Source: a virus. From it: a stretch of DNA of 63,264 nucleotides. The notes under the pieces were generated by a model. It had not been told where the DNA came from. It did no database searches and saw only the letters and a list, made by a program, of their open reading frames with translations. The DNA is taken from positions 1 to 63,264 of the IMG/VR virus record IMGVR_UViG_3300027763_000002, one strand, 5' to 3'. The position numbers and the translations under genes were made by a program. This document shows positions 14,265-57,832 of the stretch, in pieces (within the stretch, counting starts at the first letter, position 1; each line of letters opens with the position of its first letter).

Positions 14265-15082
14265 GCTGGGGCAAATCGTTTGGTGGCGCGTGGGGTAACT
14301 CCTTCGGCACAGCTGCGGTTTTTGTCACCGGGGTCGCGGCTGCGGGCGCAGTCGGCGCTGTTGTTGTCTCTCTACCTAGTATCGTCTCCGTAGATGGGGT
14401 CGAGGCTGTTGGCGCTGTCGGCACCGTTGATATTTCCGCCTCTACCTCCACCTCCGTAACCGGGGTCGAAGCTGCTGGCGCTGTCGGCACCGTTGATGTT
14501 TCCGCCGCTGCCACCGCCTCCGTAACGGGGGTCGATGCTACAGGTGCTCTGGGCTCTGTTGTTGTCTCTCTGCCTAATATCATCCCTGTAACGGGGATTA
14601 TCGCCGCCGGGGCTATTGGCACGCTATCCATAAGCACGTATTCCAATGTCTATCTAATTGGGGTACAAGCATTAGGTCTAGTGAATACCCCGCTAGTTTG
14701 GGGTCTGATCAACGAAGGCCAGACACCGGGATGGCTACCTTTGGACGATGCTCAGAACCCCGCATGGGGGGTTATAAACGAGAGCCAGACACCAAGCTGG
14801 CAGGTTTTGAATGACGCTCAGACCGCTGGGTGGAGTTCTGTAGGTAGTGGCCAGACACCAAGCTGGCAGGCTTTGAATGACGCTCAGACCGCTGGGTGGA
14901 GTTCTATAGACGAGAGCCAGACACCGGGCTGGCAGGCTTTGAACGATGCTCAGACCGCTGGGTGGAGTTCTGTAAATGATAGCCAGACACCGAGCTGGCA
15001 GGGTACGGGTAGCCCTCCGCCGGGAGGCTGGGTTCAGGTTGTGGATGGAAATGCAGTAACTTGGGTACAAATCCCATCTTAA
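14249..15082 (+). CDS. Fibre-like protein with two kinds of 22-residue tandem repeats
   Basis: GTG start overlapping the previous stop. Residues about 20-150 are repeats of the form V-T-G-V-x-A-x-G-A-V-G-x-V-x-V-S. From 14744 to 15007 there are four 66-bp repeats coding NDAQTAGWSSV plus a second half like SQTPSWQAL, each half carrying Q-T-x-x-W. The regular beta repeats suggest an elongated shaft or surface array. Confidence 0.65.
   Translation: MGSSLSWGKSFGGAWGNSFGTAAVFVTGVAAAGAVGAVVVSLPSIVSVDGVEAVGAVGTVDISASTSTSVTGVEAAGAVGTVDVSAAATASVTGVDATGALGSVVVSLPNIIPVTGIIAAGAIGTLSISTYSNVYLIGVQALGLVNTPLVWGLINEGQTPGWLPLDDAQNPAWGVINESQTPSWQVLNDAQTAGWSSVGSGQTPSWQALNDAQTAGWSSIDESQTPGWQALNDAQTAGWSSVNDSQTPSWQGTGSPPPGGWVQVVDGNAVTWVQIPS
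14744..15007 (+). repeat. Four 66-bp coding tandem repeats
   Basis: Four 22-codon units, each made of two related 11-codon halves with the Q-T-x-x-W pattern. The middle units share long exact blocks such as CAGACCGCTGGGTGGAGTTC. Copy number could change by slippage or recombination. They lie inside a fibre-like gene. Confidence 0.8.
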
Positions 15083-15091
15083 GGAACGGTT

Positions 15092-19429: not shown

Positions 19430-21358
19430 ATGGCTTTCATCAAGCTGCAGTTCAAACCGGGTATGAACCGTGACCAGACCAACTACTCCAACGAGGGTAG
19501 TTGGTGGGACGGCAACCATATTCGGTTTCGCTCTGGGTACCCCCAGAAGATCGGTGGATGGATAAAAGCCTCCTATAACTCGTTTTATGGCGTGTGCCGC
19601 CAGTTCTGGAACTGGGTAACAACCTATGCGGATAACCTCATAGCCCTAGGGACCAACAACAAGCTCTACATCAATGCGGGTGGGCAGTTCTATGACGTCA
19701 CCCCGCTGCGAGCTGTAAACCCTACCCTAAGCTCCACGATCACCGACAACTGCGTCCAGACCTTTGTGGGCTCGACCACGGTAACCCTTAACCTAGGGAG
19801 CGCTACAGACCCTAACTGCGTTGTGGGGTCTTTTGTGACTGTGCGCGGCGTGACCGGCACGGTGGGCGGCATCCCTAATGCTCAGATCAATGCTAACCAA
19901 ATCGTTACGGCAGTAGGTGCTACGTCTATCTCCTTTGTTGTAGCTACAGCTGCTTCGTCCAATGTGGCCGCTGGTGGCGGCACGGCTATCTTCATCGACT
20001 TTGAGATTGCCCCCGGTAACGTGGTCTCCGTGCGGGGCTATGGCTGGGGTGTGAGCTACTGGGGACGTGGGACTTGGGGCTCTGGTGCTCCTGCACCGTA
20101 TGCGACCCTGCAGCGGGATTGGTTCTTCGATAACCTCGACAACGACCTCATCATGAACATCCGTGAGGGCGTGCCCTACTACTGGGCTCGGGGTGCGAAC
20201 GTAGACCCGGCTATCTCTTTAGGTACCCGTGCTATCAGCCTAGCTGCCTATGCTACAAGCGCTGGATACCCAAGCGCTGCGGTACCCGTAAAAGTCACCC
20301 AACTGCTCGTCTCGCAGCAGGATCGCCACGTCATTGCCTTCGGCGCTGTGCCCTACGGCAGTACCTCTGCGGCTGACTTTGACCCCCTGCTTATCCGCTG
20401 GTGCAGCCAAGGCTCGCCGGGAGAGTGGACGCCTACTGTGACCAATTCTGCGGGCTTCCTACGGGTCTCTCGTGGCTCTGGCATTGTTAGGGCGCTGCCC
20501 ACACGGCAGGAAATCCTCGTCTTCACGGACACGCACCTCTTCACCTTGCAGTTCCTCGGTACGACCGATGTGTTCGGTCTGCAGGAGTATGCTGACAACA
20601 TCTCCATCATCTCACCTCGGGCGGTTATCACAGCTGCCAACATCACCTACTGGATGGGTAACGGTAAGTTCTACGCCTATACGGGCCGCGTGGAGACCCT
20701 CGCCTGCTCGCTACGGAACCATGTGTTCGAGAACCTCAACCGTAATCAATATGGTCAGATCGTGTGCGGCACCAACGAGCAGTGGAACGAAATCTGGTGG
20801 TTCTACCCTAGCGCCGACTCCAACTGGAACGACAAGTACGTCATCTACAACCACCTTGAGCGCATCTGGTACTATGGCAATATGGAGCGCACAGCTTGGC
20901 TGGACTCCGCACTGCAGTACTACCCTATCGCTGCTGATACCCTACAAGGTGCAGCACAGGGTTACGTGTACTCTCATGAGGCGGGTGTGGATGCTGACGG
21001 CGCACCGCTAGACGCTTATATCCTGTCCAACGACTTCGACATCGGTGATGGTGACAACTTCATGCTGACCAGCCGTCTGGTTCCCGACGTAGGCTTCGAC
21101 GGCTCTACTGAGGGGTCCTCACCTTCCGCAACAGTCACGATCTACCCACGGAACTTCCCCGGCCAGAACTACAATTCGAACATGACCCAGAATGGGCCTG
21201 TGGTCGGCAACTCTGCGGATATCAACCAGTACACCAACCAAGTCTTCATGCGCACCCGTGCGCGTCAGATGGCCTTTAAAATCCAGTCCGAGAACCTCGG
21301 GACGCAGTGGCAGCTGGGTGCGCCTCGCCTCGACGTCAGACAAGATGGTCGCCGCTAG
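19430..21358 (+). CDS. Tail nozzle/DNA stabilisation protein, P22 gp10-like
   Basis: 642 residues. The N-terminal NHIRFRSGYPQKIGGW, the YADNLIALGTNNKLYI strand, and the later TRQEILVFTDTHLFTLQF, YWMGNGKFYAYTGRVETL and NEIWWFYPS blocks form the repeating beta-propeller pattern of podovirus nozzle proteins (P22 gp10, T7 gp12 group). It should close the tail channel below the adaptors. Its stop overlaps the following GTG start. Confidence 0.75.
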   Translation: MAFIKLQFKPGMNRDQTNYSNEGSWWDGNHIRFRSGYPQKIGGWIKASYNSFYGVCRQFWNWVTTYADNLIALGTNNKLYINAGGQFYDVTPLRAVNPTLSSTITDNCVQTFVGSTTVTLNLGSATDPNCVVGSFVTVRGVTGTVGGIPNAQINANQIVTAVGATSISFVVATAASSNVAAGGGTAIFIDFEIAPGNVVSVRGYGWGVSYWGRGTWGSGAPAPYATLQRDWFFDNLDNDLIMNIREGVPYYWARGANVDPAISLGTRAISLAAYATSAGYPSAAVPVKVTQLLVSQQDRHVIAFGAVPYGSTSAADFDPLLIRWCSQGSPGEWTPTVTNSAGFLRVSRGSGIVRALPTRQEILVFTDTHLFTLQFLGTTDVFGLQEYADNISIISPRAVITAANITYWMGNGKFYAYTGRVETLACSLRNHVFENLNRNQYGQIVCGTNEQWNEIWWFYPSADSNWNDKYVIYNHLERIWYYGNMERTAWLDSALQYYPIAADTLQGAAQGYVYSHEAGVDADGAPLDAYILSNDFDIGDGDNFMLTSRLVPDVGFDGSTEGSSPSATVTIYPRNFPGQNYNSNMTQNGPVVGNSADINQYTNQVFMRTRARQMAFKIQSENLGTQWQLGAPRLDVRQDGRR

Positions 21359-35072: not shown

Positions 35073-35267
35073 CTACATCCGCCAAACTCGTAAACCTTTG
35101 ATGCCGTTTTCGATGACTATTTTGGACACGGTGGCAATGTTGTGCTTAGCGAAGTAGGCCTTTGTCTCTCGCTTGACCTTGCGCCCGTCGAGGCAGGGTA
35201 CGAAGAATGACGTACCCCGCTTGAAGGCTTTCCAGTCCAGCTCATAGCTAATCTGCTCGACTATCAT
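35073..35267 (-). CDS. Hypothetical protein, 64 aa
   Basis: Last leftward gene. The ATG at 35267 lies inside the 3' end of the primase-helicase gene (20-base overlap); longer starts would run deeper into it. The sequence is basic (RKVKRETKAYFAKHN) with a beta-alpha pattern and could bind nucleic acid. Not recognised. Confidence 0.6.
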   Translation of the reverse strand: MIVEQISYELDWKAFKRGTSFFVPCLDGRKVKRETKAYFAKHNIATVSKIVIENGIKGLRVWRM

Positions 35268-38130
35268 CCTCAGCCTCGCCCTCAGCCTCGGACTCTTCCT
35301 CGTCTTCAGCCCCCACAATGTCCTTCATATCGAGGAAGTCTGAGACCTTGCAGTCCAGCACAAGACAGTAGACGCCGGGAGAGCTGATCTTCATCCCCTT
35401 GGAGAGACGCTTGACCGCATTGGCCTTGAGGATGCCCCTAGCCTCTAGCTGCTTCATCGTATCCCTATAGTTCACCTGAGTGACAACGCAGTCATTCTTA
35501 AAGGCCTTGGCTGATAGGAACAGCAGCTGCGTATCCGGCTCATAGCGGATCAAGAGCTCACCTCGGGGCTCCAGCTTTGGTAGGGCTGCCATGTTAGACC
35601 TAAGGTCTACCCCATCCTTAACGACGAGGACGTTCTGCATGTGGCGGTTGATATAGTCACCAATCGTGGCCGAGACGTCTAAGGCTGGCGGGCTGACCTC
35701 CATGCGAAGGCTGCGGATCAGGTTACAGACAAACTCGTAGAGCGCCTTAAAGTCCCAAATAACCAAGCCGATCTGGGTAGTGATCTTGGCGGCTGTCAAG
35801 ATAGAGGCAGCTTGTGCGGACCAGAACCGCTCACGCTGTGTGAGGTTAAGCTCACGGTCTAGCTTGGACTGCATGGCCGCGCAGAGCTTGCGCACCTCGT
35901 CCATGTTCTTGATCACGTAGTCGATGAAGATCGGACCCGCATGCCCGTAGTTTTGGAGTAGGTCGAAGTCGAAGAGCTGCTTGGCTACGTCGGTGTCGAT
36001 GGCATTGCTGTACTCCAGCTTATACTCAATTAGGCGCATGAGCTCCCCATCAGGAGTCGTTTTGAGCTGCTCGAGCTTCTCCACGAACGAGGCGTTAGAG
36101 CTGAACACCGACATCGTACACCACGTCGTGTTGTTGATCCGCAGCTCGTTGCTGGACCCCTTCACACGGTCTCTGTGCCGCCCCTGCGTGGTGCCGTAGA
36201 CAAGCTCCGAGAACTCCTCGGCCTTCATGTTGGTGATCTCATCTACGCACAGGGTGATATTGTTATAGATACCTAGGCGCATCATCCGCGCATGGTTAGT
36301 GTCGGACTTGGTGGCGCACATCCGGTCAGGTGACCCGAATACACTGTTGATCATGTGCAGGAGGGTGGTCTTACCCGAGCCCGACTTTGGGTGGATCAGG
36401 TTGATCATAGCCCCACGTTGTCCAAAGAATTTGAACAGGGGTGAGGCGAAGCCCGTGAGGGCTGCGAAGGCGAAGGGCTCCATGCCGGGGCGGGTATAGA
36501 GCTCCCATACCTCTTTCCACTTATCCAAAGACCCGGCAGGGCCGACGTACTTGGCGATCTCTGCTGTGGTGGCAGAGGGGGTGCTGTGAAAGGTGCCGTC
36601 GACCGTGATCTCACGGTCCCCGATGATGAACTTGGTGTCGTTGTCGGCCCAGCCGAATTGAGAGTGCATAGGTGCTGCCTTTTTGTTTATCTGTAGGGTG
36701 TGCGCTGCATCGACGATGTAGCGGGTAAGGAGGTCGTATCTCTTAGGGTGGGTAAGGACCCCAGACTTTGCTAGGACCTCGCGGATATCTGCCACGGAGG
36801 TGATCTGCTTGTTGTTGAGCCTAAACTCAATCACCCCAGACTGCGGATCGTGGAACCGAATGATCGTCACGATGCCTTCTTCAGGGTCGAGCATCCGCTT
36901 CACGACATAGAGGTCGTGCTCATAGATGAGGATCGGATCAGCCTCTTCATCAGCGAGCCGGATATAGATGCCGCCGTTCTCACCACGGTAGTAAGGCTTC
37001 GGGTACTTAGGTATGACGTAGGTGTCGCCGTCAGCGTCTTGGAGGATGTGGTCTGAGCTAGAGGCCTCGCGGATGTCGCGGCCTAACATGATGGGAGACT
37101 TGATCTTGCCCTTGTGCGGGCACTTGGTGCAGCCGCCGGGGTTGTTGCGCTCAAACACCGCGCAGGTGTGGGGGCCCACGATGTGGCGAATTTTGTTCTC
37201 GGTCATAGAGGGGTCGTAGTCGGGGTGCTCCTCAGACATCTTATGGATGCCTAGGTCTGCGTCCTCACAGTACTTAGCTATGGATAGGGCGTCGAACCAG
37301 CGCGGCTCGGGTAGCGTGGCTTGGTTGACGAAGCAGTCGTACAGCTGTTTGCATCCCGTGCCAGTGGAGCTGCGCTTCATGATCTTCTTGAATACGGATA
37401 TCTCGTTATCCTGAAGCGACTTCCCCAGCTCGGTGAGCTCGCGTTTGACCCTAGGTGCAGATAATGCAGGGGGCTTGGCTTCGGCCACGCCGAGAAGGTC
37501 ACGGAAGTCCTCAAAATTTACGGGCGGTGCGCCTGTCAGGATAGTTACTGGCTTAGGGGTCTCATCCTTGAAATTCATCGTGCCGGGGATGCGCAGGATG
37601 CGGGCCACCTCGAACACAGCAGGGTCCACCAGCAGCCCATGCGCGTCACAGACCTCACGTAGGCGGTTGGCTACAGGCTCCCACTCCCAGCGCATGACGG
37701 CGCGGTCTAAGGACCAGTAGATGTGGAGGCCGCGACCAGAGTCGACGATGATGGGGCGAGGTAGGCCGACCGCCTTGCAGACCCGCATGAGATCAGTGAG
37801 GCCTGTGGCTTGGTCTATGTAACCTGCCGCCTTGCCTGTCTTGGGGTTTACCTCTGCCTTAGTAGGGCCACAGTCAATGTCGAGCCAGAAGGACTGGAGG
37901 CTCTTGACGTTATCCTTGGTGCGGTTGGTGTCAGTCTCATACTTAGCCACGCCGAAGAAGACGTTGCGGTTCTGTGCCATGAGGCTCGCCGCGAGGGCGT
38001 CTACCTCTTCACGGGTCTCGGCAAAGAGCTGGCGCACCCGTGCAGCAGGATTGGGATCATCCTTGATGCCGACGACAGCGAACCAGCCGTCCTCAGGTTG
38101 GACGGCGCTTAATAGGTCAAAGGGGGACAT
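35248..38130 (-). CDS. Primase-helicase fusion: AEP primase plus DUF927-like AAA+ helicase
   Basis: 960 residues from ATG 38130. The N-terminal part shows AEP primase motifs: FWLDIDCG (D84, D86), SGRGLHIYW (H136) and ARILRIPGTMNFK (176-188). A Cys cluster (GGCTKCPHKG) links to a DUF927-type helicase with Walker A PKSGSGKTT near residue 580 and Walker B LCVDEITN. The C-terminus is acidic. It would prime and unwind DNA at the phage fork with PolA and the candidate SSB encoded upstream in the same operon. Confidence 0.85.
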   Translation of the reverse strand: MSPFDLLSAVQPEDGWFAVVGIKDDPNPAARVRQLFAETREEVDALAASLMAQNRNVFFGVAKYETDTNRTKDNVKSLQSFWLDIDCGPTKAEVNPKTGKAAGYIDQATGLTDLMRVCKAVGLPRPIIVDSGRGLHIYWSLDRAVMRWEWEPVANRLREVCDAHGLLVDPAVFEVARILRIPGTMNFKDETPKPVTILTGAPPVNFEDFRDLLGVAEAKPPALSAPRVKRELTELGKSLQDNEISVFKKIMKRSSTGTGCKQLYDCFVNQATLPEPRWFDALSIAKYCEDADLGIHKMSEEHPDYDPSMTENKIRHIVGPHTCAVFERNNPGGCTKCPHKGKIKSPIMLGRDIREASSSDHILQDADGDTYVIPKYPKPYYRGENGGIYIRLADEEADPILIYEHDLYVVKRMLDPEEGIVTIIRFHDPQSGVIEFRLNNKQITSVADIREVLAKSGVLTHPKRYDLLTRYIVDAAHTLQINKKAAPMHSQFGWADNDTKFIIGDREITVDGTFHSTPSATTAEIAKYVGPAGSLDKWKEVWELYTRPGMEPFAFAALTGFASPLFKFFGQRGAMINLIHPKSGSGKTTLLHMINSVFGSPDRMCATKSDTNHARMMRLGIYNNITLCVDEITNMKAEEFSELVYGTTQGRHRDRVKGSSNELRINNTTWCTMSVFSSNASFVEKLEQLKTTPDGELMRLIEYKLEYSNAIDTDVAKQLFDFDLLQNYGHAGPIFIDYVIKNMDEVRKLCAAMQSKLDRELNLTQRERFWSAQAASILTAAKITTQIGLVIWDFKALYEFVCNLIRSLRMEVSPPALDVSATIGDYINRHMQNVLVVKDGVDLRSNMAALPKLEPRGELLIRYEPDTQLLFLSAKAFKNDCVVTQVNYRDTMKQLEARGILKANAVKRLSKGMKISSPGVYCLVLDCKVSDFLDMKDIVGAEDEEESEAEGEAEDDSRAD

Positions 38131-38172
38131 GCTCACCAACCATGGGGGACAAAACGGACACGTTAGATGGGC

Positions 38173-38403
38173 TTAGGCTAGCGCGTCCAGATACTTCTGG
38201 ATGCGAGCTACCGTTTCCTTCTTAGGTAGGAAGGTGCCGCAGAACCAATGATAGATGGTCTGCCTACTAACTCGTAGCTCGTTGGCTACGTCTAGGACGG
38301 ATATGTCGTGCTGGATACATACCCGCCCTAGACGCACACCAATGAGGGTGTCGTCGGCTTCGTTGTTTAGCTGGATCAGCCTTACGCTGTAGCCGTAACT
38401 CAT
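38173..38403 (-). CDS. Small helix-turn-helix protein, 76 aa
   Basis: Start at ATG 38403 (MSYGYSVRLIQL). The segment HDISVLDVANELRVSRQTIY followed by HWFCGTFLPKKETV is a good HTH of the XRE/Cro type. It is a candidate regulator and one possible reader of the TCTCAC palindromes at 55.5-57.7 kb, but nothing in the sequence links the two. Placed between the candidate SSB and the primase-helicase. Confidence 0.75.
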   Translation of the reverse strand: MSYGYSVRLIQLNNEADDTLIGVRLGRVCIQHDISVLDVANELRVSRQTIYHWFCGTFLPKKETVARIQKYLDALA

Positions 38404-38405
38404 GG

Positions 38406-39338
38406 TTAGTCGTCCAATCCCCAAGCATCGATGGTCGATGCAAGGTCTGCCTTAGCAGTGGTAGCAACTGTCTCGGTCTTCTTCGAGGCCCGCTTCACAG
38501 GCTGTGGCTCGTCTTCGTCCTCATCAGGCTCATCAGAGGGAGCTACCCTACCCTTACCCTGTGAAAGCCTATGGGCCAAGTCTGAGTCAACAACCCCCGC
38601 CAAGGCGGGTTTAGCCGTCACGCCGTCCGCTTGGGCCACAGTCAGCATGGTGTAGGACTGGGCCTCAGGGTTAGCCTGTGCCTCCTTCACCGCTGCGTAC
38701 TCTTCGTCGCTGATGTTGCGCATAGGAGTGAACAGCAGCTGCATGCTATCCGCGTTTAGGTCGTAGCTGATGTTAGTCACCACCGTGTCAGGGCTCTCGC
38801 CATTGGCCAACAGGTACTTCACATAGCTCTCGAAGGGGTGGACGTTCCCCGTACCCTTACCAAAGAGAGACTTGGCAGGGACGTTGAACTGGTAGATTTC
38901 ACCCGTGCTATCCCCTGCTACGAGGACAGCCAGACGACGCTGGAAGCGACATGCGCGGCCACCGTTGTCACCCGAACCTTTGACGTTCATGGGGCAGCTC
39001 TGGCAGTTAGAGGCTTGCTTGTTAGAGGCAGCAGCCTCGGGGGTCTTGCCAAGGTTAGACCAGCAGTCGGGCAGGGTGGGCTTAGCGTTGGGGTCGTACT
39101 TCCCCTTGTAGTAGACGCGAGAGACGTCGGGCAGGGCATGCACGATGATCACGTTGATCTCGCCGCGCACCGCGTTACCAACCTGCTCACCATTGATGAT
39201 GCGCTTGAAGGTGCCGTTGGTGTTCGTCTGGATGCGACGGGTCGTGCTGCTTGCAGATAGCGACTTACCGAGTTCGGAAAGCTCGCGCTTTACCGAGGTG
39301 GCGATAGCGCCGCTTTTGAAGATGCTTAGCTCAGTCAT
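38406..39338 (-). CDS. Candidate ssDNA-binding protein, 310 aa
   Basis: Starts MTELSIFKSGAIATSVKREL. It has a zinc-like cluster (CQSCPMN ... GGRACRF) and beta-rich middle, and ends with a long acidic region (SDEPDEDEDEPQP) and DAWGLDD, the acidic tail with an aromatic residue seen in many phage SSBs. It is next to the primase-helicase and other replication genes. Assignment is by layout, not by a certain family match. Confidence 0.6.
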   Translation of the reverse strand: MTELSIFKSGAIATSVKRELSELGKSLSASSTTRRIQTNTNGTFKRIINGEQVGNAVRGEINVIIVHALPDVSRVYYKGKYDPNAKPTLPDCWSNLGKTPEAAASNKQASNCQSCPMNVKGSGDNGGRACRFQRRLAVLVAGDSTGEIYQFNVPAKSLFGKGTGNVHPFESYVKYLLANGESPDTVVTNISYDLNADSMQLLFTPMRNISDEEYAAVKEAQANPEAQSYTMLTVAQADGVTAKPALAGVVDSDLAHRLSQGKGRVAPSDEPDEDEDEPQPVKRASKKTETVATTAKADLASTIDAWGLDD

Positions 39339-39515: not shown

Positions 39516-39914
39516 CTATTTAGCCGATGGACGGCGGACTTGGATTACATATTTACGGTCGAGTTGGAGGCCCGCAGGGTGAGCCTCTGGGTTCTCTTCG
39601 AGGAACGCCCGCATGTTTCCGTTATGGATACGGTGTTCCAGAAGAAACGGTGCCTCATGCTTAATGATGCACTCGTTCATTGCACCCCAATCGGTAGTCC
39701 AGAACCGTTCGCTCACGCGGCGGCTTAGCGTCCCGGCAGGGGTCTTCAGGCTGTCAACGTTCTGCTCGTTGCAGACTGAGAGAAGGTCATTGCTGATCTC
39801 CTCCAATTCGGTCTTGAGCTCACCGAGCTCAGCTTCGTGTTTGGCTTCGAGGGCTTGCACAGCGTCACGCGCTGCAACGTAGGCCCTGATCTTATCTTCT
39901 AGGGTGGTAGACAT
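39516..39914 (-). CDS. Coiled-coil hypothetical protein, 132 aa
   Basis: From ATG 39914. A charged coiled coil (KHEAELGELKTELEEISNDL) is followed by a compact C-terminal domain with SERFWTTDWGAMNE and VIQVRRPSAK. This is somewhat like Gam-type phage DNA-end binders, but the match is not secure. A good promoter (39941-39968) lies directly upstream. Confidence 0.6.
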   Translation of the reverse strand: MSTTLEDKIRAYVAARDAVQALEAKHEAELGELKTELEEISNDLLSVCNEQNVDSLKTPAGTLSRRVSERFWTTDWGAMNECIIKHEAPFLLEHRIHNGNMRAFLEENPEAHPAGLQLDRKYVIQVRRPSAK

Positions 39915-39940
39915 GGGTTGCTCCGAGTTAGGACGGGACC

Positions 39941-39968
39941 ACAATAATCTTACATTATACAGTGTCAA
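39941..39968 (-). promoter_or_regulatory. Leftward sigma70-like promoter
   Basis: Read on the minus strand: TTGACA, a 16-base spacer that includes AATGTAAG, then TATTGT. It overlaps the end of the SNF2 gene and lies about 25 bases before ATG 39914. It would drive the genes for the coiled-coil protein, candidate SSB, HTH protein and primase-helicase. Confidence 0.6.
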
Positions 39969-41350
39969 GGGTTGTTAGCGATAACCTGCTTATAAAGATC
40001 GATTATCTGCTGGTGGTTCATCACGTTCGTCTGGAGCATCTTGTAGAGTCGTGTCTCTACGTCGCTACCCGTAATGTTATAAATGGTCATGTTGTTCTGC
40101 TGCCCCGGCCTGTCGATGCGGGCATTGGCTTGCAGGTAGGTCTCCACGCTCGAGATAGGCGCGTACCAGATGATGGTGTTTGCTGCCGTAAGGGTGAGAC
40201 CGTGAGAGGCCGCTTGGGGCTGGATGATCAGCACGTGCGGTTCAGGCTTGGTTTGGAAGTCCTGCACGATCTGCGACCGCTTGTTCATCGGTACGCTGCC
40301 GTTAATGACGGAGCAGCTGATGTTGTTTTTCTCTAGCAGGTTCTGAAGTAGCTCTATGGTGTGGGTGAAGGGCACGAAGATCAGGACCTTGTGCGACGAC
40401 TCCTCCACGACCTCCAGCACGACGTTGAGGCGGTTGCTCACATCGAACTCAAGCACCTCCCCAGCATCCGTGTAGACTGCGCCTGAGGCAATCTGGAGCA
40501 GCTTGCTCATCTTTACGGCTGCGTTGACAGAGGTAACCGACTCGTCACCGGCTGAGAACAGCATCTCACTGCGCAAGAGTTTGTAGTAGGCCCGCTGCAT
40601 GGGGGTCATGGGTGCCTCACGCTCGACGTAGGTCACCGGGGGCAGGTCGATACAGTCCTTCTTCTCGAACCGGATGGCGGGCTGGAGCACACTGTGGACG
40701 ACGCTCTTGGCGGTCGGCTTAGGCATCCAGCGAAACTGGCTCGCCTTATACATCACCATGTCACGGTATGAACCGTAGTACTTGGGGGTGTTGGCGGGGT
40801 TGATGATCTTGGCTAGGCCATAGGCATCGAGGGGTGATTGTGCTGCTGGCGTACCCGTAAGCATCCAGATGCGAGGGACGTTCGCGGATATATCTTTGAA
40901 GGTCTTCCACCGCTTAGTGCCGGGGTTCTTATAGGCGTTCGCCTCGTCCACCACGATCAGGTCAAAGCCACCGTCGATCAGGTCTTGCTTGAGGATGTTT
41001 GCACCGTCGAAGTTAACGATTACGAACTCGGCCCCGGACTGGACGATCTTCTTTCTGCCTTCTGCCGTAGAGCTATAGGCTACGGAGCAGCTGCGGTGCA
41101 TGGCGAACTTGAACAGGTCCTGTTGCCACGCGGCCTTCATGATGGACAGTGGGCAGAGCACAAGCACTCGCTTCACCAGCCCCTGCTTCATGAGGTAGTC
41201 GGCAGCCCAGATGACGGATGCGGTCTTACCCGTACCTTGCTCGTTGAAGCAAAAGGCCTTGGGATTGTTGACGAGGAAGTCTGCTGTAACTTTCTGGTGG
41301 GCGTACGGGGTCAGCTTCCCCGTCCAGTGGTAGTTGCTCAGTATGGACAT
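39965..41350 (-). CDS. SNF2-family DNA helicase
   Basis: 461 residues. Motif I NEQGTGKT (36-43), motif II DEAN (135-138), motif III LTGTPA (164-169), and motif VI QANARIDRPGQ near 410 are all present, so both RecA-like lobes are intact. Small phage SNF2 helicases are usually linked to replication or recombination. Here it lies between an HNH nuclease and the candidate SSB operon. Confidence 0.9.
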   Translation of the reverse strand: MSILSNYHWTGKLTPYAHQKVTADFLVNNPKAFCFNEQGTGKTASVIWAADYLMKQGLVKRVLVLCPLSIMKAAWQQDLFKFAMHRSCSVAYSSTAEGRKKIVQSGAEFVIVNFDGANILKQDLIDGGFDLIVVDEANAYKNPGTKRWKTFKDISANVPRIWMLTGTPAAQSPLDAYGLAKIINPANTPKYYGSYRDMVMYKASQFRWMPKPTAKSVVHSVLQPAIRFEKKDCIDLPPVTYVEREAPMTPMQRAYYKLLRSEMLFSAGDESVTSVNAAVKMSKLLQIASGAVYTDAGEVLEFDVSNRLNVVLEVVEESSHKVLIFVPFTHTIELLQNLLEKNNISCSVINGSVPMNKRSQIVQDFQTKPEPHVLIIQPQAASHGLTLTAANTIIWYAPISSVETYLQANARIDRPGQQNNMTIYNITGSDVETRLYKMLQTNVMNHQQIIDLYKQVIANNP

Positions 41351-44074: not shown

Positions 44075-44256
44075 TCTTCTCCATCCTCCCAGCCATCTAC
44101 AATTCTCTGTAGTGTCTCGCGCACCACCTCTCTCGAGCGTGGGTCATCCTCTACGCCTTTGACCCACATCTCAATCCGGTCATCCCAATAGTGTGTGATG
44201 ATGAGCTCGTAGGTGACAGGTTGGCGGTGGTCAGCGAGGTTAATGACGTCACTCAT
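44071..44256 (-). CDS. Hypothetical protein, 61 aa
   Basis: Start ATG 44256 overlaps the DNA polymerase stop (TGATG). Sequence MSDVINLADHRQPVTYELII, acidic end (DGWEDGEE). Small alpha/beta protein of unknown role, coupled to polymerase translation. Confidence 0.65.
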   Translation of the reverse strand: MSDVINLADHRQPVTYELIITHYWDDRIEMWVKGVEDDPRSREVVRETLQRIVDGWEDGEE

Positions 44257-46937
44257 CAGCACTCTCCATAGCTGAAGCCGTTCCCTGCCTCACAGGCTAG
44301 GGGTAGCTCTGGTGCCCACGTGGGGCGGGTTTGCATGCACTGCTCGACATAGGCCTGAGCCTCGTCGATCTCCTCTTGGGGTGCGATGATGGCGATGGCG
44401 TCGTGGACGGTCATGACGGGGCGGTAGCGCTTAGCGACCAAGAGCATCTGCTCCCCGATGACGATGCGGGCGAGAGCCTGACAGACGTTCTCGATGACCT
44501 TGCCTCCGTATATCCGGTTAGGGATAACGGTACGGCCCTTGAGTGTGTCGTAGACGAACTGCGGCCTATCCCCCTCTTCGAGCTCGACCCAGCGTAGGCC
44601 GGGGTAGCGGACATAGAGATTGTTCGGCAGCCGGATGCCCATCATGTTAACCACCAGTGCCCCCGGTCTGCCAAGGTCGGTCGTGCGACCCCCAAGGATA
44701 GCCTCAAGGGCTTTCTTCCCGTCGTTCCAGAGCTCGGGTATCCGTGGGTAGGTCTCTCGGTAGGTGCTTATGATCCGCTCCGCCTCATCGAGCGTAATGT
44801 CCACGGAAGGCGTAGCGTTCTTCAGCGCCAGCTTGAACTTGGTCGGACCCATCCCATAGCCGCAGTTATGGACAATAATCGCCCCTGCATCGGTCGCAAC
44901 CGTGTATCTGTTCCTCGGCCCTGCGTAAGCGATATCGTAGGTCAGCGATTTCTGTCTGCATTGCTCGGGCGGTGCGTTTATTACGAGCATTTTCGCTACG
45001 TGTAGCAAAGCGGAGGTTACCCGGCTCATACCCTTTAGAGTTGTCCACCCTATCGAGGTCACGTTTGGCGTCTTCCCACCCGTCAAGGGAGATAAGGTAC
45101 TGGAGAAACGCCCCTCGGTCTGTGCGCCATGCGTCATGGACAAAGATACCCCTACCTCCGTAATCGGGATATGTTTTCGATTTAGGGTTATGACAGCGTC
45201 CGATACAGCTCGCGATACGGTTAAGAAGGCGTTGGCGATGTTCGAGGTCAGGAACGATAGCCTCGTACCCCCAATATTTCTTCCGTGTTGCAGACGACGC
45301 ACCTTTTGCGCATTCGTTGCATCTTGTGGTGCGCCCCGCTTTGAAATTGTACCGGTCCACAAGCCCTTCCCAGCTACAGGAGCAACGAACCACGGGGTGC
45401 CACCCAGAGGATCGACCTGTTGATTTGTGGTGCTGCTCCCAACGAACGACTTCCAACTCGCCCTGTCGATAGCCGACCGGAAAAGGGAAGGGTTTGTAAC
45501 TACCTCGGACCACTCCCGCCACCCATGTTCCGTTAGAATTTCGTGGTCCGGCGTGGCGGTTAGCCCCCGTGCCGTCAACACTTCCTTCTCCCCCTGCGGG
45601 ACTACTCCCTCGTGATTTACCCATTCTTCACCGTCCCATAACATATCCATAGCTTGTACTTCGACTATGCACTTCCAACCACTGTCGGTCAACACTTTTG
45701 TACCGGGACCAAAACAACCTAGTATAGTTGTTTTGCCTACGAACCGCTCGTCCTTCGTGATATCCTTGGGGTCCTTGCCGTAGATACTGCTGGCCATGAT
45801 CCGGTACACGTCTTCCTTGCGGTCGAACGCATCGACTAGATCATCCTGCTGCGCTAGCCATGCCAACGTACGGGCTTCGATCTGACTGCTGTCGCTGTCC
45901 ACCATCATGAACCCTTCGGGGGCCATCATGGCGCTCTTGAGTGGGGAGGAGCGTTGCAGGTTCTGGAGGTTAATCTTGTCGTCGCCGCCCCAGCGTCCCG
46001 TGTGCGCCGCATAGTAGCGTAGGGGTACGGGGAGTGAACCTCGCCCTGAGATGCCAATGAACCGCTCGGTGCGGGTCTCCTCGAGGGTGCTCTTCACGCC
46101 CAGCCGCGCAGCGACGATGGCTTGCACGGTGGGGTCGGGGTGGTCCAGCAGGGCGGTGAACTCTTCGTCGTTCTTCGCGAAAGCATAGGTCTGCTTCTGC
46201 GTAGTCGGGCTCACCTTCATAGGCGGGGTTACACCCAAGGAACCTAGCACAGAGGCTAGCTTTGGGTTGGACATCAGGTCCTCGATCTCCAGCGACATGC
46301 TATCCATGAGCTTCTGCTTACGGGCTAGCACGTTAGAGAGATGCTCCTCCAGCCGCTCGTGGTCCAGCTCCAACACAGGCTCGGTGAACATGCGGATGGT
46401 CAAGTCGATCAGCTTCAACTCCATGAGAGGGAAGCCCACGGCCAGCACATCGAACAGCTTACGGGTCAGCTCTGTGTCATTGCAGCAGTAGCGCCCATAG
46501 GCCGCGAGTTGGTCAGCCCCAAAGTCCCTGCGCCTCATGTTGAACGCTTGGACGACCTCGGTGCCCTTCTCGCCTAGGCCGAAGTGCTGAACCAGCTTGG
46601 CTAGGCTTACCCCTGTCATAGAACCTACAACAGCTCGCGCCATGGAAAGAGTATCTGCAATACGCTTGGGTCTTATGTCAAAATGCCAGTTCAAAATTGA
46701 CATATCGAAGACGGCATTGTGAGCAATGCAGAGGTGCTTATCCATCTCGAAGCTATCGAGGAAGGCTTTGGTCGCGAGCTTGGTCCCGCTGAACCAAACA
46801 GCATCCTCGTCGTTGACCTTCACACTCACCCCGATCACCTCGAACCGAGGATCGCGTATGTATTCTTCAGTAGTCATAGTTGAGAGGCTGTAATTGGTGC
46901 CGTAGAGCGTTTCAAAGTCGAGGGTGATGATGTTCAT
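44256..46937 (-). CDS. Family A DNA polymerase with 3'-5' exonuclease, interrupted by an intein
   Basis: 893 residues as translated, 609 after splicing. Exonuclease motifs: D7/E9 (LDFET), HNAVFD (D78) and Y150-CCND154. Polymerase motif A is DSDSSQIEAR from D347; motif B begins R398-FVG-K402-TTILG and is cut by the intein before C-GYG; motif C is VHD (H845, D846). The short length, no 5' nuclease, is usual for phage replicative PolA. Start overlaps the upstream stop (ATGA). Active enzyme requires intein removal because motif B forms the nucleotide-binding O-helix. Confidence 0.95.
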   Translation of the reverse strand: MNIITLDFETLYGTNYSLSTMTTEEYIRDPRFEVIGVSVKVNDEDAVWFSGTKLATKAFLDSFEMDKHLCIAHNAVFDMSILNWHFDIRPKRIADTLSMARAVVGSMTGVSLAKLVQHFGLGEKGTEVVQAFNMRRRDFGADQLAAYGRYCCNDTELTRKLFDVLAVGFPLMELKLIDLTIRMFTEPVLELDHERLEEHLSNVLARKQKLMDSMSLEIEDLMSNPKLASVLGSLGVTPPMKVSPTTQKQTYAFAKNDEEFTALLDHPDPTVQAIVAARLGVKSTLEETRTERFIGISGRGSLPVPLRYYAAHTGRWGGDDKINLQNLQRSSPLKSAMMAPEGFMMVDSDSSQIEARTLAWLAQQDDLVDAFDRKEDVYRIMASSIYGKDPKDITKDERFVGKTTILGCFGPGTKVLTDSGWKCIVEVQAMDMLWDGEEWVNHEGVVPQGEKEVLTARGLTATPDHEILTEHGWREWSEVVTNPSLFRSAIDRASWKSFVGSSTTNQQVDPLGGTPWFVAPVAGKGLWTGTISKRGAPQDATNAQKVRRLQHGRNIGGTRLSFLTSNIANAFLTVSRAVSDAVITLNRKHIPITEVGVSLSMTHGAQTEGRFSSTLSPLTGGKTPNVTSIGWTTLKGMSRVTSALLHVAKMLVINAPPEQCRQKSLTYDIAYAGPRNRYTVATDAGAIIVHNCGYGMGPTKFKLALKNATPSVDITLDEAERIISTYRETYPRIPELWNDGKKALEAILGGRTTDLGRPGALVVNMMGIRLPNNLYVRYPGLRWVELEEGDRPQFVYDTLKGRTVIPNRIYGGKVIENVCQALARIVIGEQMLLVAKRYRPVMTVHDAIAIIAPQEEIDEAQAYVEQCMQTRPTWAPELPLACEAGNGFSYGEC
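44865..45716 (-). other. Intein in DNA polymerase motif B, 284 residues
   Basis: Residues 408-691 of the precursor. Splice block A starts C1-FGPGTKVLTDSGW; block B is GLTATPDHEIL with T55 and H58; block F is YDIAYAGPRNRYTV; block G is IIVH283-N284 followed by extein Cys+1. All class 1 splicing residues are present, so it should splice. No LAGLIDADG or in-frame HNH motif lies between the blocks; instead the middle is the alternate-frame shadow of an HNH gene. Confidence 0.95.
44866..45624 (-). CDS. HNH homing endonuclease nested out of frame inside the intein
   Basis: 252 residues on the same strand as polA but in another frame. Zinc-type cysteines: C81/C83 and C102/C105. The nuclease core reads RLLNRIASCIGRCHNPKSKT, then DYGGRGI, then LDRVDN (190-195) and GNLRFATRSENARNK (202-216), a standard phage HNH signature. 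Its ATG lies 92 bases inside the intein and its TAA ends one base before the intein end. GGTGA precedes the ATG closely; a GTG at codon 35 is an alternative start. Predicted to cut intein-free polA alleles. Confidence 0.9.
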   Translation of the reverse strand: MGKSRGSSPAGGEGSVDGTGANRHAGPRNSNGTWVAGVVRGSYKPFPFPVGYRQGELEVVRWEQHHKSTGRSSGWHPVVRCSCSWEGLVDRYNFKAGRTTRCNECAKGASSATRKKYWGYEAIVPDLEHRQRLLNRIASCIGRCHNPKSKTYPDYGGRGIFVHDAWRTDRGAFLQYLISLDGWEDAKRDLDRVDNSKGYEPGNLRFATRSENARNKRTARAMQTEIADLRYRLRRAEEQIHGCDRCRGDYCP

Positions 46938-50252: not shown

Positions 50253-50465
50253 TTACTTGCTAGGGGTAGTGTCGGTGGACATGTTAGCTTCGGCATAGGC
50301 GACCATCTGCGTCACGACTTGCCGCATGGACAGGTTGAACTCACGACCAGCTTGCTTGAGCCTGTTGAACTGTGGCTGCGACATGTTGATCGTGACCTGC
50401 ATCTGCTCGGTGCGTACCCAGTTGGGGTCGAGCACCTTGGGTGGCTTGGGCTGTAGCTTAAACAT
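50253..50465 (-). CDS. Small DNA-binding-like protein, 70 aa
   Basis: MQVTINMSQPQFNRLKQAGR then EFNLSMRQVVTQM fits a beta strand plus two helices, the ribbon-helix-helix layout. ATG 50465 overlaps the VWA gene's stop (TGATG). Possible regulator of this operon. Confidence 0.65.
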   Translation of the reverse strand: MFKLQPKPPKVLDPNWVRTEQMQVTINMSQPQFNRLKQAGREFNLSMRQVVTQMVAYAEANMSTDTTPSK

Positions 50466-51769
50466 CAGTCGAACTCCGCGATGTAGATGGTCTTGCCAGT
50501 GGGCGCAGTGATCTCACGATAGGGGTTGACCACCACCCACAAGACGGGTGCGGGCCAGTTGTTACCCCAGTCAGAGCCGACCTCGCCATCGGTCAGCACG
50601 ATGATGCAGTCGGGCTTCATCTTGTGGGTAGCCATGTAGTTGGAGACACACGATGGCTGCGTGCCACCACCACCCTTGGGCTTGGTGTTGGTGAGCAGGT
50701 TGTCCAAGGTAGTCTGCGTATAGGTCTCGTGCGCTGTGACGTGGCTGTCCCAGTAGAGCACGTCGACCTTCTCAGGCTTGACCATACTCAGGAGCGACAC
50801 CATCTCCGTCATGAAGGTAGGTATCTCCTTGTAGATGGAGCCGGACATATCGGTCGCGATGGCCACGCTGTTCAGCGTCTCCCCGATCATTATGGGTAGG
50901 TAGATATCAATACCGACGAAGCGACGGTTAAGCCTACGGTAGGTCGCCTCCTCCTTGTCGACGCAGTAGGCTGTGACGAACTCCTGCGTCTCGCGCTTCC
51001 AGTTGATCTTAGGCTTGACCAGCTTGTCGAACAGTCGGTCGACGTTGCCATTGCCCTTACCGTTGAGCTTCTCGTGCAGCATCTTGCCCTGACGGATAGC
51101 GCGGTCGACCTCCTTCTCGACCTCTGCCTCCTCTGCCTCCGTGCGCTCTTGACCAGCCTCCCAGTCGTGATCGTCGAAGCCACCACCCTCGGCAGGACCG
51201 TTGCCCTGCTGTGGCTTACCCTTACCCTGCTGTGACTGGCCCTGACCCTGCTGTGACTGACCCTGACCACCGCCACCTTGCTGCTGTTGCTGCTTCTGCT
51301 CCTGCTCGAGGATGTCGTAGACCTGCTTGACGTGCATGTTACGGAACCGCTCGTCGTACAGACCCATGCGCTCGCCCGTAACGGGGTCGCGAGGGAAGGC
51401 GATGAACTGCTCGGTCGGGTCCATGTCACTGACGATGAGGTTAAGCACGTAGTCACAGGCTTGGTTGGTGAGCTTGGCATCCATCTTCCAGAGCTTAGCC
51501 CACGTCTGGATATCGCGCAGCATCTTGTGACCGGCCTCGTGGATGACCACGAAGGCGATCTCGCGCTCGGAGAAGGTCGCGATGAACTTGCGACCATACT
51601 CCTCGTTGAAGCCATCGGTGCGCCCGAAGATGTCACCCTCTACGATCTTGGTAGTGCCGACCATCATCAGGCCGGACATGCGGGCAAAGATTTTGTTCCG
51701 CATGAGGTTAACCTTGACCTTCTGGAGCTTGCGCTCCTCCTTGTCGCGTATCTCTATGATGTCAGTCAT
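50465..51769 (-). CDS. VWA-like protein with metallopeptidase domain (DUF2201 type)
   Basis: 434 residues. H77-E-A-G-H81 in a helix and TNQACDYVLN (about 101-110) define the metallopeptidase-like N-terminal domain. A Gln/Gly-rich linker (about 155-195) leads to a VWA domain with the MIDAS DMSGS near 313. Such proteins work with MoxR AAA+ ATPases as metal or protein-complex chaperones. The MoxR gene lies two genes upstream. Confidence 0.85.
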   Translation of the reverse strand: MTDIIEIRDKEERKLQKVKVNLMRNKIFARMSGLMMVGTTKIVEGDIFGRTDGFNEEYGRKFIATFSEREIAFVVIHEAGHKMLRDIQTWAKLWKMDAKLTNQACDYVLNLIVSDMDPTEQFIAFPRDPVTGERMGLYDERFRNMHVKQVYDILEQEQKQQQQQGGGGQGQSQQGQGQSQQGKGKPQQGNGPAEGGGFDDHDWEAGQERTEAEEAEVEKEVDRAIRQGKMLHEKLNGKGNGNVDRLFDKLVKPKINWKRETQEFVTAYCVDKEEATYRRLNRRFVGIDIYLPIMIGETLNSVAIATDMSGSIYKEIPTFMTEMVSLLSMVKPEKVDVLYWDSHVTAHETYTQTTLDNLLTNTKPKGGGGTQPSCVSNYMATHKMKPDCIIVLTDGEVGSDWGNNWPAPVLWVVVNPYREITAPTGKTIYIAEFD

Positions 51770-51998: not shown

Positions 51999-52242
51999 GG
52001 TCTTCTCCTTCAATAATCAGAGCGGGTAGGTCTTGGAACGCGGCAAGCTCGTCCTTCGCCCTTATGAGCACCCTCATGGTTACCCGCATGGTCTCGAGGT
52101 CGCGGCGAACGACCTCCACGTCTATCGCCTTGCTTAGACCCTCCGCGTACTCCCAGTGCTCGAGGACGACCCAACAGTTGAATATGCCGGAGTGCGTGTG
52201 GTCGTCTCCGGCTACCCACGGTGTGACCTTAAGGACCTGCAT
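51976..52242 (-). CDS. Hypothetical protein, 88 aa
   Basis: Starts by TAATG overlap with the MoxR stop. MQVLKVTPWVAGDDHTHSGI, then alternating strand and helix; LIRAKDELAAFQDL resembles the RLIAKDELDAAKQV segment of the next gene, so the two may be related. Unknown. Confidence 0.6.
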   Translation of the reverse strand: MQVLKVTPWVAGDDHTHSGIFNCWVVLEHWEYAEGLSKAIDVEVVRRDLETMRVTMRVLIRAKDELAAFQDLPALIIEGEDRALRNRS

Positions 52243-53309
52243 TACAGCAGGTCTTCGTTACGCTCGAGCCAGCTCGCGAAGGCACCCGAGGAGAAGGCGA
52301 TCTTCTGCTTGTTGGGGTTCTTGGCGACGTTGATAGCGAAGGCAGCTTGCCATGCAGGAGCGAGCCGCTCGAGGTAGGTCATGAACGGTGTCATGGTCTC
52401 GGCGGTGATCTTCTCAATGGCACCAAACACCAGCACGGAGCATGCACCTGCCGACGTAGGGATAGGCGTAGTCTTGGGGTGGGCCACGATATCAGCCCAC
52501 GGTGCTAACTGGTCTTGGTAGTCGATGTAAGACAATAGGTCAGCAGCCGCAGCCTGACCAACCTTGCCGATAAGCGCAGCCTTGAGCGCCTGCGGGGTGA
52601 TGAGGTGACGGGTCTCGATGATGTCAGACGCAATGTCTAGCGAGCGAGGGGTAACGATAGCGCTCTGAACCTTGCGCGGGTTGTAGATATAGACGTTACC
52701 CTCTTGGCCAGCGTCCATGTAGCTCGCCAAGACCTGAGGTGTCTCGTGGACCCATGCCATGAGCACAGGGCTACGGTCGTTGTTGGATGCCCATGCCAGC
52801 CACTGGTCAGCGTTAGGCTTGCGCACGAAAATCTCTACCACGCGGTCAGCAGTGTGACCGAGCAGCACGTCGCCCAGACCCTCGTCGCCAAGGTTACCGG
52901 ACATAAGGACAATGGAGCCCTCTGGCAGGGGGTCGTCACCGAAGCGCGGGTTGGTGCGCTCGAGCAAGGGGTGCAGCATGTTCTGGACGTAGCGTGTGCC
53001 CTTGGTGAACTCGTCGAGCATGATGCAGACGGGTCGGCCAGTGTGAAGCCTGAACCCCGTGTTAGGGTACAGCGAGCTCGTCTTGGTGTCATGGTTGGGC
53101 ATGGGGATGCCCGCCTCACCCTCGGCCATGGTGCCTACGTCACGGTAGACCATCTCATAGTTGGGTAGCTTCTTGGCAAGGATGCCCATGATGCTGGACT
53201 TGCCGATGCCCTTCTCACCACGGAGCATGATCCTAGCCCGTGGGTTAGTAGCGATAAGGGTGGCAGCTTCTTCGATGGACACAAACTGGTTGAAATCGAC
53301 GTTAGACAT
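52242..53309 (-). CDS. MoxR-family AAA+ ATPase
   Basis: 355 residues. Walker A GEKGIGKSS (31-39), Walker B CIMLDEF (D99, E100), and a sensor-like VLMSGN. Length and motifs fit MoxR. MoxR ATPases act with VWA proteins, and here both are in one operon. Preceded by a strong promoter at 53385-53413. Confidence 0.85.
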   Translation of the reverse strand: MSNVDFNQFVSIEEAATLIATNPRARIMLRGEKGIGKSSIMGILAKKLPNYEMVYRDVGTMAEGEAGIPMPNHDTKTSSLYPNTGFRLHTGRPVCIMLDEFTKGTRYVQNMLHPLLERTNPRFGDDPLPEGSIVLMSGNLGDEGLGDVLLGHTADRVVEIFVRKPNADQWLAWASNNDRSPVLMAWVHETPQVLASYMDAGQEGNVYIYNPRKVQSAIVTPRSLDIASDIIETRHLITPQALKAALIGKVGQAAAADLLSYIDYQDQLAPWADIVAHPKTTPIPTSAGACSVLVFGAIEKITAETMTPFMTYLERLAPAWQAAFAINVAKNPNKQKIAFSSGAFASWLERNEDLL

Positions 53310-55566: not shown

Positions 55567-55584
55567 ATCTCACCGCAGTGAGAT
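55567..55584. promoter_or_regulatory. Operator-like palindrome 1 (ATCTCACCGCAGTGAGAT)
   Basis: Perfect 7-base arms around CGCA, placed between the promoter at 55628-55655 and the first leftward start codon, overlapping its likely ribosome site. Related copies occur at 56306, 56378 and 57729. Confidence 0.75.
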
Positions 55585-55600
55585 TCGGTTGGGGGTTGGC

Positions 55601-55682
55601 GCTGGAGGTGATCTCCAACGTTCTTACATTGTAGCACATTGTAAGAATTAATCAAGTGTTTTGGCTTAGGCGTAAGAAAACG
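55601..55682 (-). repeat. Leader repeat, copy B (main leftward operon)
   Basis: Aligns with 53361-53445. It includes GGAGGTGATCTCCAAC, GTTCTTACATTG and TTTTGGCTTAGGCGTAAG. Confidence 0.7.
55628..55655 (-). promoter_or_regulatory. Leftward sigma70-like promoter, main early operon
   Basis: On the minus strand: TTGATT, 16 bases, TACAAT. The transcript would start with a leader containing TTGGAGATCACCTCCAG (small hairpin) and then the palindrome at 55567-55584. Confidence 0.7.
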
Positions 55683-55815
55683 GGCAATGTTAAAAACCCC
55701 TAATGTAAGAAAACTCCTAATGTAAGAAACTATCCAAGGGGGAGGTACTTCCGCCTCTCCCTAATGTTAGAAAAAAACTTAACATTATAATGTAAGAGAA
55801 AAAGTACACCCTATC

Positions 55816-56215
55816 TAACGTAACAAAAATATCCTAACCGCAGGGTGTGGAATGTTAAAAAAGGTAATGTAAGAATGTAAGAAAAAAGGGCCTAATGTTA
55901 AGAAACAGAAAATGGTTTTCTTACATTAGCAACGCCTTATGGCATAAGGGTTTGAAGGTAGAAAGTAAGGGTAATGTTATATTGTTAAAAGAAATAGAGA
56001 GAGAATGGCGAGTTTGGGGTTTTTGTTTTTTGGGGATGCGGGAGAGAGGTGCACTTGCATAGAAGCGCAGTTTCCTAAAAAGCTCAAAAACCGTTCTTAC
56101 AATATAACATTATAACATTGCTTGATTTCATTGAGGAATTTTCTTTACATTACCCAAACCATTTTCTTACATTCTTACAATACCTACCTACGGTTAGGAT
56201 ATTTTTGTTACGTTA
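55816..56215. repeat. 25-bp perfect inverted repeat with 350-bp spacing
   Basis: 55816-55840 (starts TAACGTAAC, ends CCTAACCG) is the exact reverse complement of 56191-56215 (starts CGGTTAGG, ends GTTACGTTA). The centre of symmetry is near 56016, within a G/T-rich stretch. The short repeated octamers mostly switch direction on either side of it. Confidence 0.9.
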
Positions 56216-56305
56216 TATATGACGTGTTATGTTGACGTTAACGTAACCCTACATTTTCTTACATTACACCTACCTAACTATGGTGAGATTTCTTACATTA
56301 GGCTG

Positions 56306-56323
56306 ATCTCACCGATGTGAGAT
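56306..56323. promoter_or_regulatory. Operator-like palindrome 2 (ATCTCACCGATGTGAGAT)
   Basis: Perfect 7-base arms around CGAT. A half-site (GGTGAGATT) lies 24 bases upstream at 56282. Confidence 0.75.
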
Positions 56324-56343
56324 TTTCTTACATTAACCCCTTC

Positions 56344-56458
56344 GGTGCTATCGTCACTTGGAACTATCCCGAGGGCGATCTCACCGCTGTGAGGTTAGTT
56401 TCTTACATTACCCCTTTGGGCATATCGCCTTAGTGCTATCGTCGCTTGGAACTATCCC
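56344..56458. repeat. 27-bp direct repeat pair, 88 bp apart
   Basis: 56344-56370 and 56432-56458 share GTGCTATCGTC and CTTGGAACTATCCC with two differences. Each is followed by CGCTGTGAGG, so about 50 bases were duplicated. Confidence 0.75.
56378..56395. promoter_or_regulatory. Operator-like palindrome 3 (one mismatch)
   Basis: ATCTCACCGCTGTGAGGT: same as the other palindromes except one arm base. Lies within the first unit of the 88-bp repeat. Confidence 0.65.
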
Positions 56459-56490
56459 TAAGCCTGCCTCCCGCGCTGTGAGGCAGGCAC

Positions 56491-56520
56491 AAAAAAACCC
56501 CCTGCCATTTGGCAGGGGGT
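56491..56520 (-). terminator. Leftward intrinsic terminator
   Basis: ACCCCCTGCC (56497-56506) pairs with GGCAGGGGGT (56511-56520) around ATTT. On the minus strand the hairpin is followed by seven Ts. A second perfect 9-bp hairpin (56462-56488) lies just beyond. It ends the short 57571-56548 transcript before the repeat-rich region. Confidence 0.9.
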
Positions 56521-56547
56521 CAAGGGGTAGGACGCTAGGGGTAAGGC

Positions 56548-57728: not shown

Positions 57729-57746
57729 ATCTCACCGATGTGAGAT
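57729..57746. promoter_or_regulatory. Operator-like palindrome 4 (ATCTCACCGATGTGAGAT)
   Basis: Identical to palindrome 2, in the divergent region, so the same regulator may link the two control regions. Confidence 0.75.
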
Positions 57747-57832
57747 ATCCACGGGGTAGGCACCCCCCAAAACCCATATCAGGGTGGTCCCCCCTCTCTA
57801 ATATACTATTCCACACAACCGATGACGCACTT

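Follow-up and report, generated by a model that had tools for sequence, protein, structure and literature searches.

We consider it highly probable that the non-coding region 55585-56490 of the window (the whole IMG/VR virus record IMGVR_UViG_3300027763_000002, 63,264 nt) is a phage replication origin, which would be bidirectional and DnaA-independent and would be opened by the primase-helicase encoded at 35248-38139. Four things were established in the present analysis: the array of short repeats (iterons) that fills the region, the conservation of its polarity and spacing, the predicted fold of the initiator, and the covariation between one residue of this protein and the iteron word.

The iteron array of the window

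The first 128 bases of the record are repeated at its end (128-bp terminal overlap), so that the unit genome is about 63,136 bp. Within 55585-56490 (906 bp), 12 exact copies of AATGTAAG/CTTACATT were found (+ strand: 55702, 55719, 55789, 55866, and 55874; - strand: 55623, 55920, 56166, 56258, 56292, 56327, and 56402), and 15 were found in the whole window. Shuffles of the whole window gave a mean of 1.15 octamer copies and never reached 15; shuffles of the 906-bp region alone gave a mean of 0.06 (maximum, 1), with any single octamer reaching at most 7 copies. Counts and shuffles thus agree with an earlier note on this DNA, which had reported 12 exact octamers in the region, more than chance; its statement that five of the seven CTTACATT copies lie at or after 56166 was confirmed by the positions. 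With the looser word WTGTWA, 27 iteron-like sites were recognised in 55585-56490, some of them at an exact 8-bp period (rightward sites, 55867/55875 and 55974/55982; leftward sites, 56093/56101/56109 and 56163/56171). The A+T content of the array region was 60%, versus about 44% genome-wide. The features of the region are as follows.

55585-56490, no strand: whole iteron region (candidate origin), with the octamer counts, shuffles and A+T content given above
55620-55926, +: left iteron array, mainly rightward, with a leftward closing copy at 55917-55927
55812-55844, +: left arm of the 33-nt inverted repeat (94%)
55862-55885, +: left arm of the 24-nt inverted repeat (96%), carrying the iteron dimer
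55866-55881, +: 8-bp-period dimer AATGTAAGAATGTAAG inside the left array
55973-55988, +: inner rightward iteron dimer AATGTTATATTGTTA, 8-bp period, adjoining the core
55988-56096, no strand: core spacer between the facing inner iterons, 108 bp; its length is kept in relatives, its sequence is not
56093-56119, -: inner leftward iterons, three copies, 8-bp period
56141-56410, -: right iteron array, leftward copies
56162-56185, -: right arm of the 24-nt inverted repeat
56187-56219, -: right arm of the 33-nt inverted repeat
56496-56521, -: strong terminator-like hairpin, separating the array from the leftward genes upstream

Both inverted repeats are centred at about 56016-56024. The inverted repeat that had been described as 25 bp long is therefore real, but this length is too small, the arms being 33 and 24 nt. 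Likewise, the proposed switch of octamer direction exists, but it consists of more than one flip, with [>>>> <][>> core <<<<] as the conserved order. The three octamers outside the array (9228, 39949, and 48030) are at about the chance level. A meaning had been given to the copy at 39949 as part of a promoter spacer; it is one of these three, it lies at a gene start (ORF 39516-39968), and no support for a promoter was found there.

The array is flanked by the strong leftward terminator and by the start of the leftward operon with the replication genes (about 55575), and the rightward genes, from the terminase onward, begin at about 58 kb. The palindrome TCTCACCGNNGTGAGA occurs four times, on the two sides of the array and upstream on the terminase side (55568-55585, 56307-56324, 56379-56396, and 57730-57747), and relatives have other palindromes (CCTAACTAGGTTAGG, TTAACTGGTTGAGCTAA, and CCTAACATTGTTAGG) at similar places; these palindromes are probably fast-evolving repressor operators. 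A 26-nt repeat, GTGCTATCGTCACTTGGAACTATCCC, lies beside the right array at 56345-56370 and 56433-56458, where relatives carry repeated ACTATCAT words.

Other signals were searched for in the region. Cumulative GC skew, which the earlier note had proposed as a check, showed no clear extremum in the window, and the weak signal was confounded by gene direction. DnaA boxes (TTATCCACA, at most one mismatch) were at the chance level in the window and absent between 49.3 and 58.9 kb, so that the region lacks the DnaA boxes of a DnaA-dependent oriC. An Rfam search gave nothing at the gathering score, and four sigma-70 promoters were found in the array versus 2.9 expected. No direct nucleotide match was found in named phages, a composite iteron query gave only noise-level matches, and a genome search with the neighbouring 228-aa protein, tried as an anchor, found no homologue. 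Neither a Rep_3 nor a RepA_N domain was detected among the scanned proteins (a subset of the ORFs).

The array in related viral contigs

Relatives were IMG/VR contigs found via the terminase, with the array at the orthologous place, a few kilobases upstream of the large terminase gene. Its position, polarity and geometry are kept in at least 25 related viral contigs, while the word drifts (TGTAAG, TGTTAG, TGTTAT/C, TGTTCT, TGTTGT, and TGTAAA). The word of the window is kept in L028, L051, L066, and L079; TGTTAG is used in L078, L081, L009, L011, and L004; TGTTAC/T in L025, L029, L060, L062, and L073; TGTTCT in L041, L052, L072, and L082; TGTTGT in L031; and TGTAAA in L027. A pattern scan for AATGTAAGAATGTAAGAAA added further members (L084-L088 and L092), together with unrelated contigs. 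The earlier note had held that relatives lacking the octamers would count against its reading; the exact word is indeed absent from some of them, but they carry the same array in a drifted word, which is informative rather than a refutation.

The usual order of blocks in relatives is that of the window. Over 20 loci, 101 sites left of the core were rightward and 26 leftward, and right of the core 96 were leftward and 6 rightward; the Fisher value for this polarity is descriptive only, because sites were not independent within a locus. Between the inner facing iterons, the spacing averaged 104 +/- 9.5 bp (median, 106.5; 24 loci; window, 108), the spread being perhaps understated because the inner sites were picked by eye and pattern. 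Tandem dimers with the 8-bp period were recognisable in most loci scanned. The spacer sequence is hardly conserved across loci, a search for a conserved core stem-loop having given only word-level hints (GCACTTGC and GAGAGCCT), and its A+T content ranges from 0.48 to 0.76 (window, 0.56). The array was not found in the examined parts of four primase-bearing contigs (G027, G051, G052, and G061), which reflects either a contig end or a different organisation.

It could be argued that the region is a functionless low-complexity or recombination-derived patch whose copies were spread by local duplication, as some copies have repeated flanks and successive copies in L088 (G012) stand in tandem 27-bp units. 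Polarity and spacing are nevertheless conserved despite sequence drift, and one residue of the primase covaries with the word (see below); together these imply selection, and we regard a functionless patch as extremely improbable.

Some further observations were made on these contigs. The core (about 55785-56215) is nearly identical in L088 (IMGVR_UViG_3300027749_000004), the outer iterons and spacers differing strongly, as if the core had been exchanged or selectively retained. In L028, a tandem repeat of GTGCACTCGCTCGCCGCCTCC adjoins the origin array (6810-6950). In G050 (the contig of L290), the large terminase gene is apparently interrupted or extended (14190-16682), its two matching pieces lying within one open frame of 859 aa.

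No close relative in culture was found, and the nearest named primases are those of Pseudomonas phage Rollin (28% identity) and Rhizobium phage RHph_TM3_14A (25%). The latter (L096) has a cluster of TTATGAT/ATCATAA at 19588-20013, in AT-rich non-coding DNA where its rightward replication operon starts; no array was seen in the part of Rollin that was read. Planktothrix phage Pag-Yong1 (L127) has GTCATACA repeats in a non-coding stretch before the terminase, and the clusters of RHph_TM3_14A and Pag-Yong1 are possibly analogous repeat clusters in named phages. Dense TGTAAG arrays with the same 8-bp dimer were also found in unrelated gut phages (L091, 7741-8034; L094, 7657-7825), next to a primase-like gene, and in a Rufibacter contig (L105, 4523-4803), beside parA and a possible Rep gene; L089, L090, and L101/L112 carry such arrays as well. 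The gut-phage and Rufibacter arrays may represent convergence, because the search that found them used this word itself.

The candidate initiator and residue 909

A leftward module is conserved in 14 long and 10 shorter contigs and encodes the primase-helicase, an 83-aa HTH protein, an SSB-like protein, a Gam-like protein, an SNF2 helicase, HNH and RecB-like nucleases, a family A polymerase, an Hjc-like nuclease, a DUF2201 protein, and an AAA+ ATPase. Nearly all of the 14 long contigs compared have the genes for the primase, the SSB-like and HTH proteins, the helicase, the nuclease and the polymerase. This conserved replication operon ends in the gene for the primase-helicase (963 aa). The genes referred to in the text are listed below.

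35248-38139, -: proposed initiator, 963 aa; AEP primase, DUF927/MCM-like helicase and C-terminal winged helix; predicted iteron binder
35413-35415, -: codon of V909, a wing-strand residue
38406-39392, -: 328-aa conserved protein with an acidic tail, SSB-like by sequence appearance only
39965-41350, -: SNF2-type helicase of the replication operon
44256-46937, -: family A DNA polymerase of the replication operon, with an intein-like insert

The small HTH protein (38173-38424, - strand) lies between the primase and the SSB-like gene and is kept in 14 of 14 compared genomes. The polymerase insert (about 280 aa, residues about 420-701) starts with C (TILG followed by CFGPGTKVLTDSGW), ends in VHN followed by C, and is absent from nine relatives; judged by these sequence features it is likely an intein, and it matched no intein model in Pfam or NCBIfam. 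An AAA_5 ATPase and a DUF2201 VWA-like protein (50465-51769 and 52242-53309, - strand) form a conserved pair in the operon that resembles MoxR/VWA pairs.

The 963-aa protein matched Pfam DUF927 (E = 2.8e-24), NCBIfam SCCmet_Cch1 (below its cut-off) and PDB 5dgk. An AlphaFold model of the whole protein was built from 48 sequences (mean pLDDT, 83.7; pTM, 0.52). In this model, residues 376-943 resemble the SCCmec Cch protein (5dgk; Z = 31.7, 485 aligned residues), to which the helicase part was structurally closest, and SaPIbov1 Rep (8tch; Z = 27.0, 469 aligned residues; Foldseek E = 7e-17), and residues 6-217 resemble the AEP domain of S-2L PrimPol (Z = 18.4). The C-terminal domain modelled alone (mean pLDDT 79, about 90 or more over most of the winged helix) resembled Rep 453-561 (Z = 9.4), Cch (Z = 9.3) and, with Z = 8.1, a winged helix of the pCW3 relaxosome whose structure was solved with oriT DNA, the Foldseek E-values for this domain alone being weak (best, 0.018). 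Cch, a DUF927 protein, is related to SaPIbov1 Rep, and the C-terminal domain of SaPI Rep recognises the origin iterons (PMC7581432). The primase-helicase is the best candidate for the protein that binds the array; the HTH, SSB and RHH proteins, suggested earlier as binders, are probably the wrong ones.

In the initial 12 genomes with array and module, the residue preceding KR[LM]SKGM (residue 909) was N in six of six TGTTA genomes, V, V, T, and L with TGTAA, K with TGTTC, and Y with TGTTG. Among 4540 variable columns of 16 proteins, only this one was both uniform in the TTA class and able to separate all classes; when labels were shuffled, 12.5% of the shuffles produced at least one equally perfect column among the 4540, so that the covariation in these 12 genomes is not significant alone, and the claim rests on later genomes and on the winged-helix location. 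The residue was judged worth testing because of its position in the predicted DNA-binding domain, where the model puts it on a strand of the wing.

The rule was fixed on the 12 genomes, and predictions were recorded before new arrays were inspected; it held in the next 12 of 12 genomes. Three were predicted contigs with an array: G049 and G050 (both V) with TGTAAG, and G035 (N) with TGTTAT, where for G050 the TGTAAG array beside the terminase (the orthologous place) was taken in spite of a slightly higher score for a TGTTAG cluster at a distance of 8 kb. A DNA polymerase scan gave nine more: G059, G060, G062, G063, G064, and G068 with N and TGTTA words (the class of G059 being ambiguous because TGTTACA is readable as either, and the array of G068 being weak), and the TGTAAG genomes G066 (V), G065 and G067 (both T). 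The test genomes include near-copies (G049/G050, G065/G067, and G035/G037). Residue 909 follows the iteron class without exception in 25 of 25 genomes, and in 24 genomes it was the only full-accuracy column among 706 low-diversity primase columns (next best, 88%). A tree built from primase residues 1-850 shows six or more changes of iteron class, with residue 909 following every one of them, strictly independent pairs numbering only two to four and some long branches being unsure. Two other primase residues were set aside: residue 53 failed as a covarying site with more genomes, and residue 205 splits TTA from the rest with eight residue kinds, none shared, and so carries no rule.

The same comparison bears on the small terminase. 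If the array were a packaging (pac) site read by that protein, its closeness to the terminase genes (2-3 kb in the window, and likewise nearby in relatives) would fit, and residue 117 of the putative TerS did track the TTA class in the 11 genomes compared first. It failed out of sample (P in the TAA contigs G065, L051, and L084; I in the TTA contig L073), whereas primase residue 909 did not, and the arrangement is symmetric; TerS specificity thus does not track the repeat as in a pac site, and we think this function very unlikely.

A phage repressor or activator that binds the octamers and controls the leftward early operon starting at about 55575 must also be considered. The array is directly upstream of that operon, many dispersed operators are carried by some phages, and a conserved HTH protein of 83 aa exists. 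The expected operator place, however, is occupied by the separate palindrome TCTCACCGNNGTGAGA, those of relatives there being unrelated; facing polarity and 105-bp spacing are unusual for a repressor; and the iteron classes were separated by one primase column in the 12-genome scan but by none of the HTH protein. Such a regulator is improbable as the explanation of the array, and origin and regulator functions could overlap in it. The earlier note had offered an origin with iterons or a multi-site regulator; the conserved array, polarity, spacing, SaPI-Rep-like initiator and covariation favour the origin, the regulator being less likely.

Proposed mechanism and comparison with known replicons

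By analogy with SaPI Rep, we infer binding, ring assembly, melting, priming and bidirectionality as follows. The C-terminal winged helix of the primase-helicase would bind the octamers, and rings would assemble on both facing iteron sets, the inner 8-bp-period copies being the most critical. Separated by the core of about 105 bp, roughly ten turns of the helix, the rings would face each other, melt this core, and load head to head. Replication would then start bidirectionally and independently of DnaA, the N-terminal AEP domain priming and the family A polymerase extending. As leftward genes run from about 57.7 kb and rightward genes from 58 kb, forks and transcription would be co-directional, which fits an origin but does not prove it.

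In SaPI/PICI origins, many short iterons in two sets flank a melting region and are recognised by the initiator (PMC6092414, PMC7581432), a layout reported to occur in no other known bacterial replicon. The window likewise has two short-iteron sets flanking a putative melting region, and as in the Rep-ori of SaPIbov1 (8tch) and of Gram-positive and Gram-negative PICIs, the predicted initiator is an MCM-like AAA+ helicase of the same fold with a C-terminal winged helix. In contrast to those origins, which lie directly downstream of rep, a distance of 17 kb separates the array from the gene of its proposed initiator; this protein is a fusion with an AEP primase; and the spacing of about 105 bp between inner facing iterons is kept. 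Moreover, a PICI is a small satellite without complete virion genes, whereas the window is a complete phage of 63 kb that encodes its own terminase and has a long late operon. By this comparison, the array very probably works like a SaPI/PICI Rep-ori module, yet the element is not a PICI.

Among other systems, Cch2 of SCCmec binds short iterons via its C-terminal domain, but the putative SCCmec origin has only three direct iterons, and in vivo SCC replication was undemonstrated at publication (PMC7581432). In the RepA-ori of PLE, satellites of Vibrio cholerae, the DNA-binding domain of the initiator covaries with the iterons (PMC8263062), as here. PLE differs in its RepA_N initiator, an unrelated protein, and in its iterons of about 30 bp. 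In the lambda O-ori and iteron plasmids, iterons adjoin an AT-rich stretch, as in the window; they are direct repeats of about 20 bp, with host helicase loading and no primase-helicase initiator.

Few phages outside the classical models have known origins. For a group of phages that is mostly uncultured, the array offers a signature by which the origin can be recognised, with the likely initiator named, and it links phage origins to SaPI/PICI origins with a one-residue hypothesis of specificity. We give about even chances to the broader reading that widely sampled phages of about 60-65 kb use a SaPI/PICI-style initiator with a facing-iteron origin, that phage and satellite origins share ancestry, and that residue 909 largely sets the word read. 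If this is true, origin specificity would diverge stepwise in a readable code (N, TGTTA; V/T/L, TGTAA; K, TGTTC; Y, TGTTG), and shared origin rules would matter for the way in which satellites and helper phages compete for replicons or discriminate between them.
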